A stretch of DNA of 64,000 nt, taken from IMG/VR virus record IMGVR_UViG_3300022750_000002, positions 1-64,000 of that record, one strand, 5' to 3'. Below the pieces are notes generated by a model, which saw only the letters and a program-made list of their open reading frames with translations, made no database searches and was not told where the DNA came from. How positions within the stretch are numbered: position 1 is the first letter of the stretch; every line of letters starts with the position of its first letter. This document shows, in pieces, positions 13,435 to 62,029 of the stretch. The translations under genes were made by a program, and so were the position numbers. Origin of the DNA: a virus.

Positions 13435-13441
13435 CAAAAAT

Positions 13442-14084: not shown

Positions 14085-14858
14085 ATGGCAGAAAGAAAGT
14101 CATTATCAAAGAAAATCAGATTTGAAGTATTTAAAAGAGATAGCTTCACTTGTCAATATTGCGGTTCAAAATCTCCTGATGTTGTTTTAAATGTAGACCA
14201 CATAAATCCTGTTGCAAAAGGTGGTAAGAATGAAATGTTAAACCTTATAACAAGTTGTTTCTCGTGTAACAGTGGCAAATCAGACAGACAATTATCCGAT
14301 AAAACTATTGTAGAGAAGCAAAGAGTTCAAATAGAAGAACTAAACCTACGTAGGCAACAATTAGAAATGTTATTGGAATGGAAAACAGGATTACAAGATA
14401 TTAAATCAGATGAAGCGCAAAAAGTATCAGACTACATAGAAAAAATTACTGGTAAGGTAAGTTTAACTCCTGTAGGACTGAAAAATATGCAAAAACATAT
14501 TAAAAAATTTGGTTTGCAAGAAATATTAGATGCTGTGGATATAGCTTTTGATAAATACTATAAAGAGGATGAAGAGGGAAGTGATGCTATTGCATTCAAA
14601 AAAGTTCCTGCTATTGCTTTTATAAATACTCAACCAAAGCACATGAAAGATATTGCTTATGTAAAGGGTATTTTAAGAAATAGGATTTATTTAAATGACG
14701 CAGTTGCTAGCAAATCTCTTTTAGAATTCCATAATGCAGGCGGTAATATGCAGTCTGTCATAGAGTACGCTAAAAAGGTGAGGAATTGGACTATTTTTAT
14801 CGCAGAAGTTCAAGGGGCTACCGAAAAGATGTTAGAAGAATCTGAACTGGGATTTTAA
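14085..14858 (+). CDS. HNH-domain protein, 257 aa
   Basis: Residues 10-70 form a complete HNH nuclease motif: FKRDSFTCQYCG, LNVDHINPVAKGG, then NLITSCFSCNSGK, with both zinc cysteine pairs and the catalytic DH. A coiled helix (QRVQIEELNLRRQQLEMLLEW) and a helical C-terminal domain follow. The gene lies directly before the replisome-organiser and helicase genes and overlaps none; similar gene pairs suggest a role in replication or recombination, not homing. This function is inferred. Confidence 0.65.
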   Translation: MAERKSLSKKIRFEVFKRDSFTCQYCGSKSPDVVLNVDHINPVAKGGKNEMLNLITSCFSCNSGKSDRQLSDKTIVEKQRVQIEELNLRRQQLEMLLEWKTGLQDIKSDEAQKVSDYIEKITGKVSLTPVGLKNMQKHIKKFGLQEILDAVDIAFDKYYKEDEEGSDAIAFKKVPAIAFINTQPKHMKDIAYVKGILRNRIYLNDAVASKSLLEFHNAGGNMQSVIEYAKKVRNWTIFIAEVQGATEKMLEESELGF

Positions 14859-18751: not shown

Positions 18752-19021
18752 ATGAGTAAAATGGAACCAGTAAAAGATTATGTAGTTCTTGAGAGAGAAG
18801 AAGCAAAGGAAATGACAGCAGGCGGCTTGTATATACCTGCCCCTAGTCAAGAAAAGCCATTAAGAGGCAAGGTAGTAGCAATGGGCAATGAACTGAGCAA
18901 AGACACTGTCGTTAAAATGGGAAGAACCATGCTGTATAAAAAGTACGGAGGAACAGAAACAAACATTGATGGCATAGATTATGTTATTATAAAAGAGGGA
19001 GATTTACTCTTAGGATTGTAA
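18752..19021 (+). CDS. groES: GroES-type co-chaperonin
   Basis: 89 residues covering the whole Cpn10 fold: VKDYVVLEREEAKEMTAGGLYIPAPS (the mobile loop and following strand), KPLRGKVVAMG, then MLYKKYGGTETNIDGIDYVIIKEGDLLLGL, the classical GroES end. It would cap host GroEL, since no GroEL is in the window. As with T4 gp31, a phage GroES often enlarges or alters the folding cage for the capsid protein. The packaging and capsid genes follow. Confidence 0.9.
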   Translation: MSKMEPVKDYVVLEREEAKEMTAGGLYIPAPSQEKPLRGKVVAMGNELSKDTVVKMGRTMLYKKYGGTETNIDGIDYVIIKEGDLLLGL

Positions 19022-19526: not shown

Positions 19527-19778
19527 CTAAGCGTTAGTAAGAGCCATTACCGCAGCAGCAGTTTCAGTTACAATTAAGTTTACCTGATAGCGAACTTGGT
19601 TGTAAGGCAATTCATATAGAATATTTGTTACACCTGTAGTTTGATAAGCAGTTGGTCTTGTTGTAACCGAAAGAATGTTTCGTGGGTTAATGTAAAGCAA
19701 AGAAGTAGCAGTCGCGCTAGTTTCTTGATTTGATAGCTTAGAAAAGCTATTTACGGGTATCAAATTTGCTGTAGCCAT
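19527..19778 (-). CDS. Lone minus-strand protein, 83 aa
   Basis: The only gene on the minus strand between 6 and 54 kb. The protein has no Lys clusters or membrane segments and is rich in Thr, Ala, Asn and Ser (ATANLIPVNSFSKLSNQETSA, YINPRNILSVTTRP, VRYQVNLIVTETAAAVM), a composition typical of small phage structural proteins. It has its own terminator and a TAACTTTG-type -7 element upstream (minus strand, 19819-19826). It may be a decoration or other abundant virion protein; not proven. Confidence 0.55.
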   Translation of the reverse strand: MATANLIPVNSFSKLSNQETSATATSLLYINPRNILSVTTRPTAYQTTGVTNILYELPYNQVRYQVNLIVTETAAAVMALTNA

Positions 19779-19839: not shown

Positions 19840-19847
19840 TACATTTG
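19840..19847 (+). promoter_or_regulatory. -7 element TACATTTG before the packaging operon
   Basis: TACATTTG followed by TTATG; the same word occurs before the portal, connector and ejection genes. No TTG at 17-23 bases upstream. Confidence 0.45.
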
Positions 19848-19850
19848 TTA

Positions 19851-19961
19851 TGCTAACAATTAGAATACAATTCAAACATGGTAAACAACTTAACGATATT
19901 CCCATCAGTAGGTGACAATTCTTAAAATTGTATTTCGTTAGCACGTTTACCTATTGGTGGG
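19851..19961 (+). promoter_or_regulatory. Pseudoknot-capable leader RNA
   Basis: TGCTAAC (19851-19857) pairs with GTTAGCA (19937-19943), and GAATACAATT (19863-19872) with AATTGTATTTC (19926-19936) with one bulge. The enclosed loop carries CCCATCAGTAGGT (19901-19913), which pairs in all 13 positions (two wobbles) with ACCTATTGGTGGG (19949-19961) outside the first stem; an alternative GGTAAAC/GTTTACC pairing competes. The element begins four bases after TACATTTG and ends 16 bases before an ATG. It is unlike any riboswitch I know. Folded by eye. Confidence 0.55.
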
Positions 19962-19977
19962 ATTTAATTCAATTCAA

Positions 19978-20112
19978 ATGAACGGCAAGAAAACAAGGCT
20001 TTTAAAGAAGCAAGCAGTACAGATGACACTATCAGACGGGAAAGATGTAAAAAGTGTCTACAAGGGCTTAAAAACAATGTTAAAAGCAGGAATAATTAAA
20101 TTCGATAAGTAA
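19978..20112 (+). CDS. Small basic protein, 44 aa
   Basis: First gene behind the structured leader. Starts at ATG 19978 and its stop overlaps the next ATG. The protein (NGKKTRLLKKQAVQMTLSDG, then KSVYKGLKTMLKAGIIKFDK) is basic and helical. Function unknown. Confidence 0.5.
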   Translation: MNGKKTRLLKKQAVQMTLSDGKDVKSVYKGLKTMLKAGIIKFDK

Positions 20113-20711
20113 TGGAATTAGTAGGACAGAAATTGGGTGTTAAATTCCACGCTAAAGACAAAAAGGAATACGATTTAGGAAACGGCATTATTTTAATACG
20201 TCCCGATGCTTGGGAACATTCAGAAGGAACTAAAGAACAAACAAAGCTTGTTAACGAAAACGTAAACAAAATAGAAGTAAATCCACAGAGAGCCACGGTA
20301 ACTATTGAAGGAGAAGATTGCTTTTTTAAAAAGGGTGATGAAATCTTTACGCATTACATGGCTTATGAGCTTCAAGACCCGATAGAGCTAGACAACGAAA
20401 CCACTGTTATAGATTTGGAATATGCGATATTCAAAATAGAAAATGGAGAAATAAAATTGCCGGATGGATACTATTTGGGAGAACAGATTATGGAAACCGA
20501 AATCACTTCATCATCAGGGCTAATTTTAAACGTTGTAGAGAAGAAAAAGAACTTAACAGTTAAAATTACCCACATTCCACACAAAGTGTCTCATATCTCA
20601 TTAAACGACGTAATACAAAGCATAGATAATTTCAACTATCAATTTGAATATGACGGGAAGTATTATGTTTTTTTAAAGGAAGAGGAAATAGTAGCTAAAT
20701 TAATTGACTAG
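20112..20711 (+). CDS. Diverged tandem GroES-like protein
   Basis: 199 residues. The C-terminal half (about 135-198) aligns with the second half of Cpn10: SSSGLILNVVEKKKN, then ISLNDVIQSIDNFNYQFEYDGKYYVFLKEEEIVAKLID, matching the groES end G-D-x-V-x-x-x-K-Y-x-G-T-x-x-x-x-D-G-x-x-Y-x-I-L-x-E-x-D-I-L. The N-terminal half has the same order more weakly (LGNGIILIRPD, VTIEGEDCFFKKGDEIFTHYMAYE, AIFKIENGEIKL). I infer two GroES-like domains. It may modify the chaperonin cage or be a structural protein of that fold. Confidence 0.45.
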   Translation: MELVGQKLGVKFHAKDKKEYDLGNGIILIRPDAWEHSEGTKEQTKLVNENVNKIEVNPQRATVTIEGEDCFFKKGDEIFTHYMAYELQDPIELDNETTVIDLEYAIFKIENGEIKLPDGYYLGEQIMETEITSSSGLILNVVEKKKNLTVKITHIPHKVSHISLNDVIQSIDNFNYQFEYDGKYYVFLKEEEIVAKLID

Positions 20712-21305: not shown

Positions 21306-21711
21306 AAGCGGAAATAAAGAAGTAGATGACTACATAGAGGCTTTGGAGAATAAAGTAAAAAGCTTTAGTGCATCTAATACTAAAAGATTGATAAGGTCAA
21401 TTGATGGTATGGCAGGTAAACTAGCTGACGACCTGGACATGATTAATGAATCTAAGCAGAATGGAGATGGAACAGAGGTTGAACTTAGCAGTAAATTCAT
21501 CAACTCATTTTTAAGTTTAGCAGAAAAAGCAGATAAGATAGAAAAGTTTTCAGAGATAGCAGACAAAATGTACGGTGTCAAAACAGAAGAAACGGAAACT
21601 ATTACCTATACTGAGGAAACTACGACAACAACGACCGAACCAGAAGTAAACTTATTTGAGGTAATGCAGAAAAAAGTAAAAGACAAATTACATAAAAATG
21701 CCAGTAGCTAG
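21286..21711 (+). CDS. Helical protein before TerL, 141 aa (small terminase candidate)
   Basis: Starts at ATG 21286 inside the end of the preceding gene and overlaps the TerL start. Helical segments (DDYIEALENKVKSFSASNTKRLIRSIDGM, FINSFLSLAEKADKIEKFSEIADKMYGV) and a Thr/Glu-rich linker before a C-terminal helix (NLFEVMQKKVKDKL). Small terminase is the usual product here, and its helical oligomer fold is compatible, but no DNA-binding motif is evident. Confidence 0.5.
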   Translation: MICSNLRSGNKEVDDYIEALENKVKSFSASNTKRLIRSIDGMAGKLADDLDMINESKQNGDGTEVELSSKFINSFLSLAEKADKIEKFSEIADKMYGVKTEETETITYTEETTTTTTEPEVNLFEVMQKKVKDKLHKNASS

Positions 21712-23821
21712 AGTATATAAAAAAGGCGAACGCCTTAAATACATGGTGCAAGGCATAGAATACAAATGCCCGCCTCTTCCAGAGCCTTCAACAATTAGAG
21801 GCAGTCATTTACCAAAATCAGAACAAGTTTGGTATAGGCGCACAGAACATGAGCAATGGGATTGGAATATAACACCTTTCGATGAACACAAGAACAAATT
21901 AAAGTTATGGTATGAAAACCCTGCAAAGGGGCAGATGGAATGGTATGAGGAGGAAATAGAAAGACTGCATGTTGGTGATTGGATAATGATTAATGGTGTT
22001 CCTACTTTCTTCAATAAATACGCTTACTTCTTCCATAATTACTTCAAATTATTAATAGAACAGACATATCCAATTTACAAAGAAACCTCATTAGAGTATT
22101 TCAGATTCTACCAACTATGTGAAGATGACCCTTTAACTTTAGGGGATGTAGGAATAAAGGGGAGACGTGTTGGTTTATCATCAATGGCTGCTTCAATAGA
22201 TTTATTAATAGGCATAATAGAAGATAATACGCTCCAAGGTATAGTATCTAAAACAGGAGAGGATGCACAGGAAATGTTCTTTATGATTAAGAATGGTCTT
22301 GAAAATTTACCGTTATTCTTAGTACCTGAATTAAATAAAGTAACAGACAGCGAAATACATATTGCAAAACCTGCTAAAAGAATATCATCCAACAACAGGA
22401 CTATTAATGCTGATAAAGGTAAGAACAATCGTATAAATTGGCTGGATACCTCAGAGAATGCATATGATGGTAGAAAGCTTCGTAGGGCTATTCTAGATGA
22501 AGGCGCGAAATATATAAAAACTAATATTTACATCCTGTTTACGAAGATAGCAGAAACATTAGTAGTTGGGGCATCAGTAAGTGGGCATATTTCGGTATTT
22601 TCTACAGTAAATAAGGGTGACAAAGGTGGAGATAACTTTAGGCAGCTTTGGGATGGTTCTGACCACATAAACGGCAAAAAGGATATGTTCGGTCGTACAC
22701 AAACAAAACTTAAAAGATTCTTTATATCGGGAGATAGGGGGCTTTTAGGGTACGTTGGAAAATATGGAGAAAGCATAATAGATACACCAACAAGAAGTCA
22801 AACAGATTTTCTATCAACTTTCAAAGACCCTTCTACAGGTAAAATAGCTTGCCCTAATCCTAAAATAGGTGCAAGGGCATATTTAGAGGAAACAAGAAAG
22901 ATGAATGCACATGACCCTGAATTATACGCGGAGGTTGTGAGAATGTATCCTTTTGAATGGAAAGAAGTATTTAAAGGCGCTAATAACACTTGTTTGTTTA
23001 ATCTTGACGAATTAAATGATCAAATTGAAAAAATACAAGACGATTTAGATAAAAAAGGGCAAAAGGAAAACGGCAGAAGAATGTCGTTTAGAAAAGAAGA
23101 AAGTGGAGAGGTTAGAGTAATTGATGACCCTAGCGGAATGTGGTACATCCTTGAACTACCTAAAGAACATAATAAATGTATTGTCGTAGGAAGCATTAAA
23201 TGCCCTGACAACACAACATACGGAGTAGCCGGACTAGATACTATTGCAACAACAAAAGTAACGGTAGAAAAAGGTTCAGATGCCTGTTGCATCATTCATA
23301 AACGTTTCGACGCTTTAAATCCAGAAACATCCGGTATGCCAGTGGCGATGTTTGTCGGTAGGCCAAAAACAAAGGATTTATTCCATCAACAAATATATTG
23401 GGGGCTTCAATACTTCGGCATTAAGATGCTTGCAGAACGCTCACCTATTGATTGGGAAGATTACGCCGTACAAAACAAACTAGCATCTCCTGTAGATTAT
23501 GTAAAGAAATACGGGTTCTTAATTACGACTAACCTTTCTAACGGTAGTTCGGTTTACGGAGTTGCACCACAGAGCAAAGAAGGTATAGAACAACATGCTA
23601 CGGAGATGGTAGAATATGCCAACAATAATATCCATAAAATTAAGTTTTTAAGGCTATTAAAGGACATGGTGCACTTTGATCCTAAAGACAGAACGGTTTA
23701 TGATGCATGTATGGCTTGGGGATATGCATTAATGGGATTAAAAGAAGCATTTGTTAAAACGGCTACTGTTAAGAAGGTTCAGAAAATACTTCAAATAAAG
23801 CGCAGTAAAAAATATTATTAA
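21698..23821 (+). CDS. terL: Terminase large subunit
   Basis: 707 residues. The ATPase part contains a Walker-A-like GIKGRRVGLS (about 151-160) and Walker B AILDEGAKY (about 264). The nuclease part has YGVAGLDTIATT (about 510, first acidic metal ligand), MLAERSP (about 577) and HFDPKDRTVYDACMAWGYALMG (about 660, last Asp). This is the packaging motor and headful or cos nuclease. The GRRVG form of the P-loop and the total length resemble terminases of Bacteroidota podoviruses, including crAss-like phages. Confidence 0.85.
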   Translation: MPVARVYKKGERLKYMVQGIEYKCPPLPEPSTIRGSHLPKSEQVWYRRTEHEQWDWNITPFDEHKNKLKLWYENPAKGQMEWYEEEIERLHVGDWIMINGVPTFFNKYAYFFHNYFKLLIEQTYPIYKETSLEYFRFYQLCEDDPLTLGDVGIKGRRVGLSSMAASIDLLIGIIEDNTLQGIVSKTGEDAQEMFFMIKNGLENLPLFLVPELNKVTDSEIHIAKPAKRISSNNRTINADKGKNNRINWLDTSENAYDGRKLRRAILDEGAKYIKTNIYILFTKIAETLVVGASVSGHISVFSTVNKGDKGGDNFRQLWDGSDHINGKKDMFGRTQTKLKRFFISGDRGLLGYVGKYGESIIDTPTRSQTDFLSTFKDPSTGKIACPNPKIGARAYLEETRKMNAHDPELYAEVVRMYPFEWKEVFKGANNTCLFNLDELNDQIEKIQDDLDKKGQKENGRRMSFRKEESGEVRVIDDPSGMWYILELPKEHNKCIVVGSIKCPDNTTYGVAGLDTIATTKVTVEKGSDACCIIHKRFDALNPETSGMPVAMFVGRPKTKDLFHQQIYWGLQYFGIKMLAERSPIDWEDYAVQNKLASPVDYVKKYGFLITTNLSNGSSVYGVAPQSKEGIEQHATEMVEYANNNIHKIKFLRLLKDMVHFDPKDRTVYDACMAWGYALMGLKEAFVKTATVKKVQKILQIKRSKKYY

Positions 23822-27467: not shown

Positions 27468-28823
27468 ATGGCAATTACTATTCCAAATAGCACCCCTACT
27501 AATTACAGCGATCCATCGGTAACCCGTTTTGGACTAATTAGTGGCTTGAACATCGTAAACGTTCATGCTTATAACAAGTTTTATGATACTTATGGATTTG
27601 CTCCATATTCGCAATTAGCGATGTTGCAAGGTAACTACCGTAAAGTAGACAACAAACAATTTAAATGGTACCAAGGACACGGACGTACAATGGGTTTTGT
27701 TACAGCAGCAGGAACGGTAGCAGGCGCTAACGGTGCGGCGGTTACTGTAACAGTAGGAGCAGGTTCTTACTCGCAAGCAGGAACTAAATCTCTACCTGCA
27801 TTGGGTTATATTTTTTATAACTCACGTACAGGCGTTAACTCACGTGTATCGGCGGTTCCTAACAAAACTACCCCTAACGCACACACATTTCAATTAACAC
27901 CAGTATTGGCTAACACCAGTGCGGCTGTAAATGCAGGAGATGAATTGTTAGGACGTGGTTTCCTTTACTTGGGTGAGCAATCAGATAAAACTGATACCAT
28001 TATCAAAAACATTGACCAATACACCAACTATGTAACTGAGATTCGTACAGATGATACAATTGGTGATTTGGCTGGTGCTGAGAAAGTAGAGTTTCAAATC
28101 AACGGTAACTATTCATTTACCTACAAACAAATGTTGGATACCGACATGCGTAGAGCTTATGAATTGGATTATCTAATCTTTGAAGGTACACGTACAGACA
28201 ACTTGGGTTATGTTGAAGAGGGATCAAATGGTATCATTAAACAAGTTCAAGCCAATGGTATTAACATGGATTATACTACTTGGTCTTTAGCGACCTTCTC
28301 TACAATCAACAGAGCATTAAACTCAGTTGGTGCGCCTAAAGAGTATGACATTTTATCTGATGATAGCGCAATGACCGAAATGCAAAACTCTATCTTCACT
28401 GAGATTAACAATGGTGGAATTGTATATTCTGCTGCTGGTACTCGCGGAGGTATTGATTTAAACAGAGATTACCAATCAATGACCATTTACAAACGTAAAT
28501 ACAACTTTACTCAGTATGGTTTATTTGATGAGCAGACAGCTTACGGTTCTCAAGGTTTAGGTTTGCGTAACCGTTTCAGCTTATTCATGCCTACAGGTAA
28601 GAAAGAAGTACAATATGGTGAAAACAGCCCTACAGTATCGGCTCCACGTTTCAGTGTTAACTATATGGTTCCTTTCGAGGGTTCTAACAGATGGCATGTG
28701 AAAGAGAATGGTTTATTCTCAGATGGTGGCGGTACAAAAGCAGAGCGTATCATTACTACAATTGGTTATTTTGGTGCTGAGTTAATTGGTGCTCAACAAG
28801 CGTTAATCGCAAAAGGTAACTAG
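27468..28823 (+). CDS. Major capsid protein (candidate)
   Basis: 451 residues after the scaffold-like gene, closed by its own terminator, as expected for the most abundant virion protein. Gly/Ala/Thr-rich, balanced beta and helical segments, e.g. WYQGHGRTMGFVTAAGTVAG, NGNYSFTYKQMLDTDMRRAYELD, and a C-terminal FEGSNRWHVKENGLFSDGG. Codon use is noticeably more biased (frequent CGT, GGT, AAC) than in neighbours, consistent with high expression. The HK97 fold cannot be shown by eye. Confidence 0.7.
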   Translation: MAITIPNSTPTNYSDPSVTRFGLISGLNIVNVHAYNKFYDTYGFAPYSQLAMLQGNYRKVDNKQFKWYQGHGRTMGFVTAAGTVAGANGAAVTVTVGAGSYSQAGTKSLPALGYIFYNSRTGVNSRVSAVPNKTTPNAHTFQLTPVLANTSAAVNAGDELLGRGFLYLGEQSDKTDTIIKNIDQYTNYVTEIRTDDTIGDLAGAEKVEFQINGNYSFTYKQMLDTDMRRAYELDYLIFEGTRTDNLGYVEEGSNGIIKQVQANGINMDYTTWSLATFSTINRALNSVGAPKEYDILSDDSAMTEMQNSIFTEINNGGIVYSAAGTRGGIDLNRDYQSMTIYKRKYNFTQYGLFDEQTAYGSQGLGLRNRFSLFMPTGKKEVQYGENSPTVSAPRFSVNYMVPFEGSNRWHVKENGLFSDGGGTKAERIITTIGYFGAELIGAQQALIAKGN

Positions 28824-61068: not shown

Positions 61069-61863
61069 TTACTGTATTGTACTTACTTGCATGTGTATTA
61101 TAGTAATCTTGTTAGGCTTACGTTTACGAACAAGTCCGTCCTTACCCAAGAAGTAGTTTGACGTATAACACAACTCATAAAAAGCCCTGATATTAATTTT
61201 GTCCTTAGAAACTATCTCAATATTCTTTTGTGATTTGATCAGTCCAACGGCATTTAACTTCTTTTGTATTTTGTTGCCAGTAGTTGTACTTCTTCTATTT
61301 ATTAGATTGGCTAATCCTTTATTGCTTATGCTATAATAATCCTCTGACTTTTCGGTTTTGTTTTGCAGATAGGTATTTCTCTTTTTAAGTAGTTTCTTGG
61401 CTTCTTTTGTAGAAATGAATTTATCCTCTTGCAGTTTAATGATTTCAGTTTTGAGGTTGGTAATATAGTGTTGTTGCCTAAAGTTTTTTAGTAATCGTGT
61501 AAATTGAATATTTAATATCTGTTTGTTTTTGTCTTTGTCGTATTCTACGGCAATTAGAGGCGATTGGAGCGACTTTCTAAGTTTAGTTGACCCAACTATA
61601 CAAAGATTGCCGTTATGCATTGTAATAAGCCCTAATTCGGTAAGCTTCTTTATGTGCCTTTGTAGTGTAGAAATTGATAACCCTGTTTTCTTAGCTGTCT
61701 TTCTATATGAAAAGTTATAGAATTTAGGGTTGGTATAAGTTTTTCTTAGGATGATTAGTATTGAAAGCGAACGTTCCCATTTTTGATCAATAGCGGATTG
61801 TATTACCGCTTCGGGTAGCCAAGTGTATTTATCATAATGGATATTAATTTGTTTCAAAAGCAA
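61069..61863 (-). CDS. Winged-helix replication or regulatory protein, 264 aa
   Basis: Contains a helix-turn-helix with wing at about 45-90 (YNFSYRKTAKKTGLSISTLQRHIKKLTELGLITMHNG) and a second HTH-like segment near 180-210 (YYSISNKGLANLINRRSTTTGNKIQKKLNAVGLI). Two winged helices in one chain are typical of plasmid and phage replication initiators. No ATG is near the start; a TTG at 61863 is assumed, and the same frame stays open to 61944 upstream without an ATG. This leaves the real start uncertain. Confidence 0.55.
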   Translation of the reverse strand: MLLKQINIHYDKYTWLPEAVIQSAIDQKWERSLSILIILRKTYTNPKFYNFSYRKTAKKTGLSISTLQRHIKKLTELGLITMHNGNLCIVGSTKLRKSLQSPLIAVEYDKDKNKQILNIQFTRLLKNFRQQHYITNLKTEIIKLQEDKFISTKEAKKLLKKRNTYLQNKTEKSEDYYSISNKGLANLINRRSTTTGNKIQKKLNAVGLIKSQKNIEIVSKDKINIRAFYELCYTSNYFLGKDGLVRKRKPNKITIIHMQVSTIQ

Positions 61864-61994
61864 AAGGGTTAGCGAATGTAACTTATTACCTTGATTGACG
61901 CTGTGGTAGGGCTTATCGGTAATCTCTGTTAACTCACTAACCCTTTAGGGGTATATCTTGATGTTGTTGTATGATTGTCCTGCCTACCACAGCG
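61863..61994 (-). promoter_or_regulatory. Crossing inverted repeats in the leader of the winged-helix gene
   Basis: On the minus strand the order is A CGCTGTGGTAGG (61994-61983), B AAAGGGTTAG (61946-61937), A' CCTACCACAGCG (61910-61899), B' CTAACCCTTT (61872-61863). Both pairs are perfect (12 and 10 bases), and they interlock. B' touches the assumed TTG start. A 22-codon frame begins in front of A. The arrangement could form a pseudoknot or two mutually exclusive hairpins. Confidence 0.5.
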
Positions 61995-62004
61995 GTTTCA
62001 ACCA
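61940..62004 (-). CDS. Possible 22-codon leader peptide before the winged-helix gene
   Basis: ATG followed by GTT GAA ACC reads MVETAVVGRTIIQQHQDIPLKG and stops in the B repeat. A +1 shift at the CTA AAG GGT codons would join this frame to the open frame RVSELTEITDKPYHSVNQGN that runs into the winged-helix gene. Coordinates are approximate to a few bases. It may be a real leader, the true N-terminus after a frameshift, or a sequencing error. Confidence 0.35.
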
Positions 62005-62029
62005 TTACATCAAAGATATGAATATTATT

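Follow-up and report, generated by a model that had tools for sequence, protein, structure and literature searches.

The question raised by this locus is whether the non-coding stretch in front of the late operon gives rise to a pseudoknotted RNA leader and, if so, whether such a leader is peculiar to that operon. The window, i.e. the whole stretch of 64,000 nucleotides analysed here, belongs to a virus record of 73,024 bp. In a TerL comparison, the named relatives were phages of Cellulophaga, Maribacter and Flavobacterium (below 30% identity among the matches listed). The element, referred to as copy 1, is flanked by a small opposite-strand gene (19527-19778) on one side and by the late operon on the other, where a gene of 44 aa is followed by a GroES-like gene, TerL (21698-23821) and the portal gene; no change of strand occurs over ~34 kb downstream. 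Two genes of the window are similar to GroES, the co-chaperonin (18752-19021 and 20112-20711); in the second, found upstream of TerL in many relatives, the match is confined to the C-terminal part. The components of copy 1 are as follows.

19840-19847, plus strand: promoter -7 box TACATTTG (consensus TAnnTTTG)
19851-19962, plus strand: whole pseudoknot leader, its arms located in the sequence
19851-19857, plus strand: P1a 5' arm TGCTAAC, starting at predicted transcript base -1/+1
19863-19872, plus strand: P1b 5' arm GAATACAATT, read from the sequence
19873-19899, plus strand: loop L1, A-rich, containing ACTTAACGATAT, near the shared L1 motif ACWU-AA--AUAU
19900-19915, plus strand: S2 5' arm TCCCATCAGTAGGTGA, from the crossing-helix search
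19926-19936, plus strand: P1b 3' arm AATTGTATTTC, pairing with GAATACAATT with one bulge
19937-19943, plus strand: P1a 3' arm GTTAGCA, also present in the relative L001
19947-19962, plus strand: S2 3' arm TTACCTATTGGTGGGA, from the crossing-helix search
19978-20112, plus strand: first gene downstream, 44 aa, no family match, missing in L001

Every arm that an earlier note on this DNA had placed was found at its position. The outer stem described there, TGCTAAC/GTTAGCA plus a second pairing, is present and resolves into two helices, P1a and P1b, whose 5' arms are 5 nt apart and whose 3' arms adjoin. S2 (TCCCATCAGTAGGTGA/TTACCTATTGGTGGGA), which crosses them, also exists, but the 13 pairs assigned to it were too few: it comprises 16 bp, two G.U pairs included. 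The distance from the 3' end of S2 to the ATG at 19978 was measured as 15-16 nt, in agreement with the 16-base gap given previously. The third pairing, GGTAAAC/GTTTACC, can likewise be located, but its suggested role as a competing switch did not hold up, as a 7-bp helix of this kind occurs in 27% of shuffles and has no equivalent in relatives.

Could such a fold arise by chance? A simple home-made scorer, which looks for a pair of helices that cross, uses Turner stacking energies and tolerates small bulges, gave -39.7 for copy 1 (19848-19965) versus -19.9 ± 2.8 in dinucleotide shuffles, none of 3000 being as low; in a separate shuffle run, 0/300 reached the crossing-helix score of copy 1. Folded without the knot, the sequence stands out only a little (z = -2.0), and therefore the signal resides in the crossing. 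The plus strand folds better than the minus strand (-39.7 and -32.4, respectively), as expected of an RNA with G.U pairs. Thus, the view of the locus as a pseudoknot-capable RNA leader right behind a promoter was borne out, the crossing fold beating all shuffles and the box TACATTTG adjoining it. When both strands of the window were scanned in 125-nt stretches, copy 1 ranked third, and the first rank was taken by a second leader. High-scoring folds at 27955 (minus strand), 50026 and 35821 were rejected as lying inside protein genes, and one at 13441 as part of a tRNA cluster.

The phage carries three leader copies with different helix sequences, each at the head of a different operon and all directly behind TAnnTTTG. 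A restriction to the packaging operon was therefore not supported, since leaders of this kind, in this phage and in relatives, also head wHTH and replication operons.

62011-62018, minus strand: copy 2 promoter -7 box TATCTTTG, read from the sequence
62004-61863, minus strand: copy 2 leader, top-ranked in the window scan (z = -13.4), two near-perfect interlocking helices
62004-61998 with 61898-61892, minus strand: copy 2 P1a TGGTTGA/TCAATCA, from the crossing-fold search
61994-61983 with 61910-61899, minus strand: copy 2 P1b CGCTGTGGTAGG/CCTACCACAGCG, from the crossing-fold search
61892-62004, minus strand: overall span of copy 2 P1, from the crossing-fold search
61946-61932 with 61877-61863, minus strand: copy 2 S2 AAAGGGTTAGTGAGT/ATTCGCTAACCCTTT, from the crossing-fold search
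61069-61857, minus strand: winged-helix-type gene behind copy 2, domain type judged by eye
70803-70654 of the record: copy 3 leader; BLAST with copy 2 matches 70724-70776, and crossing helices fold

S2 of copy 2 is lengthened by TAAC/GTTA and ATTACC/GGTAAT. The winged-helix-type gene behind it has an apparent TTG start ~5 nt past the S2 3' arm and is 87% identical to the gene behind leader L045a. An S2 core (AAAGGGTTAG/CTAACCCTTT) is common to copies 2 and 3, as is a section of L1; their P1 helices are unlike (CGCTGTGGTAGG/CCTACCACAGCG versus CACCGTTGCAAAG/CTTTGCAACGGTG). A search within the phage for antisense partners of at least 12 nt yielded a few short scattered matches, in our judgement no more than chance would give, plus the S2 end common to copies 2 and 3.

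A further question is how widely such leaders are distributed. The family was defined by two features, P1 and an S2 that crosses it, located in non-coding DNA behind a TTTG-type box, and 13 members with a box conform to this definition, several of them having been found by the same criterion by which they were later counted. Among 742 scanned TAnnTTTG sites, leader members account for most of the top-ranked folds. The relatives come from uncultured phages as well as cultured Cellulophaga, Flavobacterium and Olleya phages and mostly lie directly after a TAnnTTTG promoter. The cultured members are the following.

Cellulophaga phi18:3, ~3171-3075: leader
Cellulophaga phi13:2, phi46:3 and phi19:3: leaders
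Flavobacterium phages elemoE and elemoA: leaders
Olleya phage Harreka_1: leader

The match tables for phi18:3 and Harreka_1 contain no annotated feature under either leader. The truncated contig L001 (TerL 86% identical) begins inside the element, keeps GTTAGCA, has GCCCACC/GGTGGGC where the window has CCCATC/GGTGGG, and carries the GroES-like gene directly 3' of the element. Crossing helices also head the late operon in L005 and L011/L012 (TerL about 60-64%), and L063 (record G007) has a crossing-helix leader with the helices present and no clear box. L045 contains two leaders, each preceding one of two related winged-helix-type genes, and L090 contains one. In L002 (TerL 62%), no significant crossing fold was found (21/300 shuffles equal it).

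Several candidates were discarded. The pattern TGCTAAC..GTTAGCA..GGTGGG gave 23 matches in viral contigs with no second crossing helix like that of the element, mostly repeats of one related, probably coding sequence. The fold upstream of TerL in Maribacter phage Panino spans the promoter instead of following it, a match behind a TAnnTTTG box in record G002 appears coding, and the phi18:3 fold at 14687 is not claimed as a member. Among genomes, the pattern CTATAAGGAT..TTATAGGGTTTT had 4 matches and zero members; BLAST of the phi13:2 leader against 396 genomes of one order returned two 27-29 nt pieces only, and TerL alignment against bacterial genomes found none.

The members share the order promoter, P1a, P1b, L1, S2 5' arm, L2, P1 3' arms, short linker and S2 3' arm. 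P1a comprises 4-10 bp (absent or weak in a few members) and P1b 7-15 bp; L1 is ~20-37 nt long and A-rich (47% A), and L2 ~7-15 nt. The strict L1 motif AC(A/T)T-AA-ATAT occurs in 4/14 loops versus 0.06 expected in shuffles (shuffle maximum 2); the late-operon members L005, L011 and L063 do not have it, and neither does copy 1 as trimmed, where it is present if one base more is counted. The end of S2 is usually 4-25 nt from the start codon, with the exception of phi18:3 (~50 nt to the annotated start) and of copy 3 and L090, in which an 8-codon frame comes first. Behind copy 3 (L044:6400-6755, record ~70300-70654, minus strand) and the L090 leader (L090:10612-10810), this frame (MQLNPIPT and MQSTPNTT, respectively) leads into non-coding DNA that is similar in the two, ACCGAGCCTGT.., and contains a stem differing in both arms; the stretch may be another structured RNA, and an Rfam search of L043 and L090 gave no match for it.

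The transcript start was predicted from the position of the -7 box, mapped in F. psychrophilum at -12 to -5 with the consensus TAnnTTTG (PMC9723704). Relative to this prediction, the first paired base of P1 lies at -1 to +3 in 9/13 members and at or before +11 in all 13, beginning only at ~+11 in elemoA and Harreka_1. The element is thus almost the entire 5' UTR, and the leaders exceed the median 5' UTR of F. psychrophilum, 24 nt (PMC9723704), several-fold.

Is it the shape rather than the sequence that is conserved? Own-arm pairing of P1b and S2 is complete in 14 members, which is true by selection; when 5' and 3' arms were exchanged between members, only 38-47% of pairs were left. Helix sequences differ almost completely between members, both arms changing together. 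Compensatory changes were found in S2 of L011/L005 (ACCCAACGGCAGATG/CATTTGTCGTTGGGT against ACCCAACGTCAGAAG/CTTTTGGCGTTGGGT), in P1 and S2 of elemoE/Harreka/elemoA and in P1 of copy 2/L090; changes are therefore compensated in both helices, the opposite of the uncompensated breakage that the earlier note had named as speaking against its reading. Orthologous places provide a better control than the arm swap. The flanks upstream of the leader are identical at 204/208 bases between phi18:3 and phi13:2 and at 205/208 between elemoE and elemoA; despite these 98% flanks, the leaders of each pair are not sensibly alignable and form the same fold. The two Cellulophaga phages also have different replication genes 3' of the leader (DnaD-like versus COG1484), which suggests that a leader is exchanged along with its gene. 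G.U pairs make up 10/145 pairs of P1b and 18/173 of S2 (28/318 together) and, with the better fold on the transcribed strand, they indicate RNA. We conclude that the leaders very probably constitute a conserved structured RNA family.

In Rfam 15, no family (riboswitch, T-box, ribozyme or phage RNA) matches the leaders at the gathering score, and at E <= 10 only two microRNA hits appeared, at chance level and far under their thresholds; this agrees with the initial impression that the element is not a known riboswitch, T-box or packaging RNA. A literature search found no paper on such a leader. It is well supported that these cis-acting 5'-terminal pseudoknot leaders, found at operon heads in Flavobacteriia phages and in phages of related Bacteroidota, form a so far undescribed family.

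What could such a leader do? Our preferred reading, to which we give a probability of only about 0.4, is that the 5'-terminal leader locks the mRNA 5' end, protects it from decay and gates operon expression. Transcription would begin at the edge of the fold; in the emerging RNA, P1 (P1a and P1b) would close on the first nucleotides, and the crossing S2 would then lock P1. The paired, knotted 5' end would shield the mRNA from 5'-end-dependent decay, and S2, next to the start codon, would control ribosome access and the timing of first-gene translation, since it usually ends within one ribosome footprint of that codon. The non-randomness of the fold, its compensated variation, its position and its multiple copies are what the data show; helix formation in cells, decay protection, translation gating and any trans-acting factor are inferred. 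No relation exists among the first genes that follow the leaders, which are of wHTH, glycosyltransferase-like or GroES-like type or encode small unknown proteins; this argues for a general mRNA role and not for the operator of one gene; a structural 5'-end role fits best because the first pair lies at the transcript start, the helices are indifferent to sequence and the genes behind them vary. Against this reading, a simple hairpin would suffice to hide a 5' end, so S2 needs another reason; P1 is late (~+11) in elemoA and Harreka_1, and L002 has no significant fold.

A translational operator is less likely and yet the most serious alternative. Here the pseudoknot would be bound by the ribosome itself or by a protein of phage or host, and S2 would either prevent or attract initiation at the start codon beside it, the model being the T4 gene 32 leader. 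S2 ends 4-25 nt from the start codon in nearly all members, the phi18:3 and phi13:2 leaders differ along with the replication genes behind them, and the T4 gp32 pseudoknot is a precedent (PMC535899), but a single autogenous repressor cannot serve unrelated first genes, and the shared loop motif is weak. In the T4/RB69 gene 32 leader, too, the translation-initiation region of a phage mRNA has a pseudoknot at its 5' end, a description that the predicted fold and position of our leaders match, and the sequence of that leader diverges among relatives while its shape matters. The T4 pseudoknot is ~28 nt plus UUAAA repeats and serves one gene, whose product is the repressor (PMC535899), whereas the leaders described here are ~80-150 nt, have long helices, occur at several operons per phage and lie at the very transcript start; the T4 arrangement, an SSB that represses the mRNA encoding it and UUAAA repeats following the knot, was not found, as the first genes seen are not SSB genes. 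Processive antitermination, in which the nascent pseudoknot would act on RNA polymerase and cause read-through of downstream terminators, appears rather unlikely. The presumed models, put RNA (HK022) and EAR (Bacillus), are promoter-proximal structured RNAs heading long operons, as are our leaders; put is present in more than one copy per phage, and a pseudoknot has been reported for EAR. Multiple copies per phage, placed right after promoters and heading long operons, and the uninterrupted ~34 kb behind copy 1 would suit such a role, but no strongly conserved sequence able to contact polymerase is present, and no sequence or covariance-model relation to put or EAR was found.

We consider it improbable that the leaders are attenuators or riboswitches. 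S2 plus a T run would then act as intrinsic terminator, its formation depending on P1 or on whatever ligand or factor L1 binds. The 6-9 T after S2 in phi13:2/46:3/19:3, elemoA, elemoE and Harreka do look like an attenuator, which counts against the 5'-end lock, and 4 T follow S2 in copies 2 and 3, L045 and L090, but the T run is missing in copy 1, L005, L011 and L063, so a U run after the stem is not a property of all members. S2 as a terminator would, moreover, have a 25-70 nt loop, and neither a conserved ligand core nor an Rfam match was found. In copies 1 and 2, the P1a-S2 linker is 1-3 nt and cannot span a complete P1 of ~17-19 bp (P1a plus P1b), so steric hindrance would seem to keep P1a and the full S2 from forming together, a point in favour of attenuation; judging from this geometry, the two may alternate as a switch, more plausibly than through GGTAAAC/GTTTACC. 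It is very improbable that, in place of an mRNA leader, the element works as DNA, whether as a packaging or replication site or as protein-binding palindromes, or that it is a self-cleaving ribozyme. In favour of this, TerL follows copy 1, replication genes follow some copies, and leaders seem exchanged as units. The G.U pairs and the better crossing fold on the transcribed strand speak against it, as do the occurrence of three copies in one phage at operons that are unrelated and the absence of a conserved catalytic core or ribozyme-family match. The preQ1, SAM-II, pistol and HDV-like RNAs have the same crossing two-helix topology and an A-rich loop, but the helices of our leaders are much longer, and no binding or catalytic core was recognised.

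To our knowledge, little has been established about the timing and protection of transcripts in Bacteroidota phages, and their hosts do not depend on Shine-Dalgarno signals. A multi-copy leader of constant structure and changing sequence, placed where early and late operons are predicted to start transcription, would give these phages a general means of control. A more speculative and doubtful extension regards the knotted 5' end as the functional unit of a new phage regulatory RNA class, its hypervariable helices being exchangeable specificity tags, each leader fitting one particular operon or trans partner, or the variation being a product of phage competition or host defence. Direct testing is possible because infectable phages in culture carry the leader (Cellulophaga phi18:3, Flavobacterium elemo, Olleya Harreka_1).

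Some additional observations concern the genomes that carry these leaders. G000 and G001 (L049-L052) have the copy 2 leader and gene in common at 87%, and their portal proteins are only 24% identical; this sharing despite divergent portals may be read as a sign of module exchange. In phi46:3 (L097, 2400-2849), an HNH endonuclease gene lies directly behind a leader that is the same as that of phi13:2, which has another gene there. Record G002 contains a long tandem repeat of GGCTATGGCT units (L056:4351-4600). In L010, L011, L012 and L013, TerL is split by ~1 kb between residues 262 and 268, possibly by an intein or by an intron with a homing gene.
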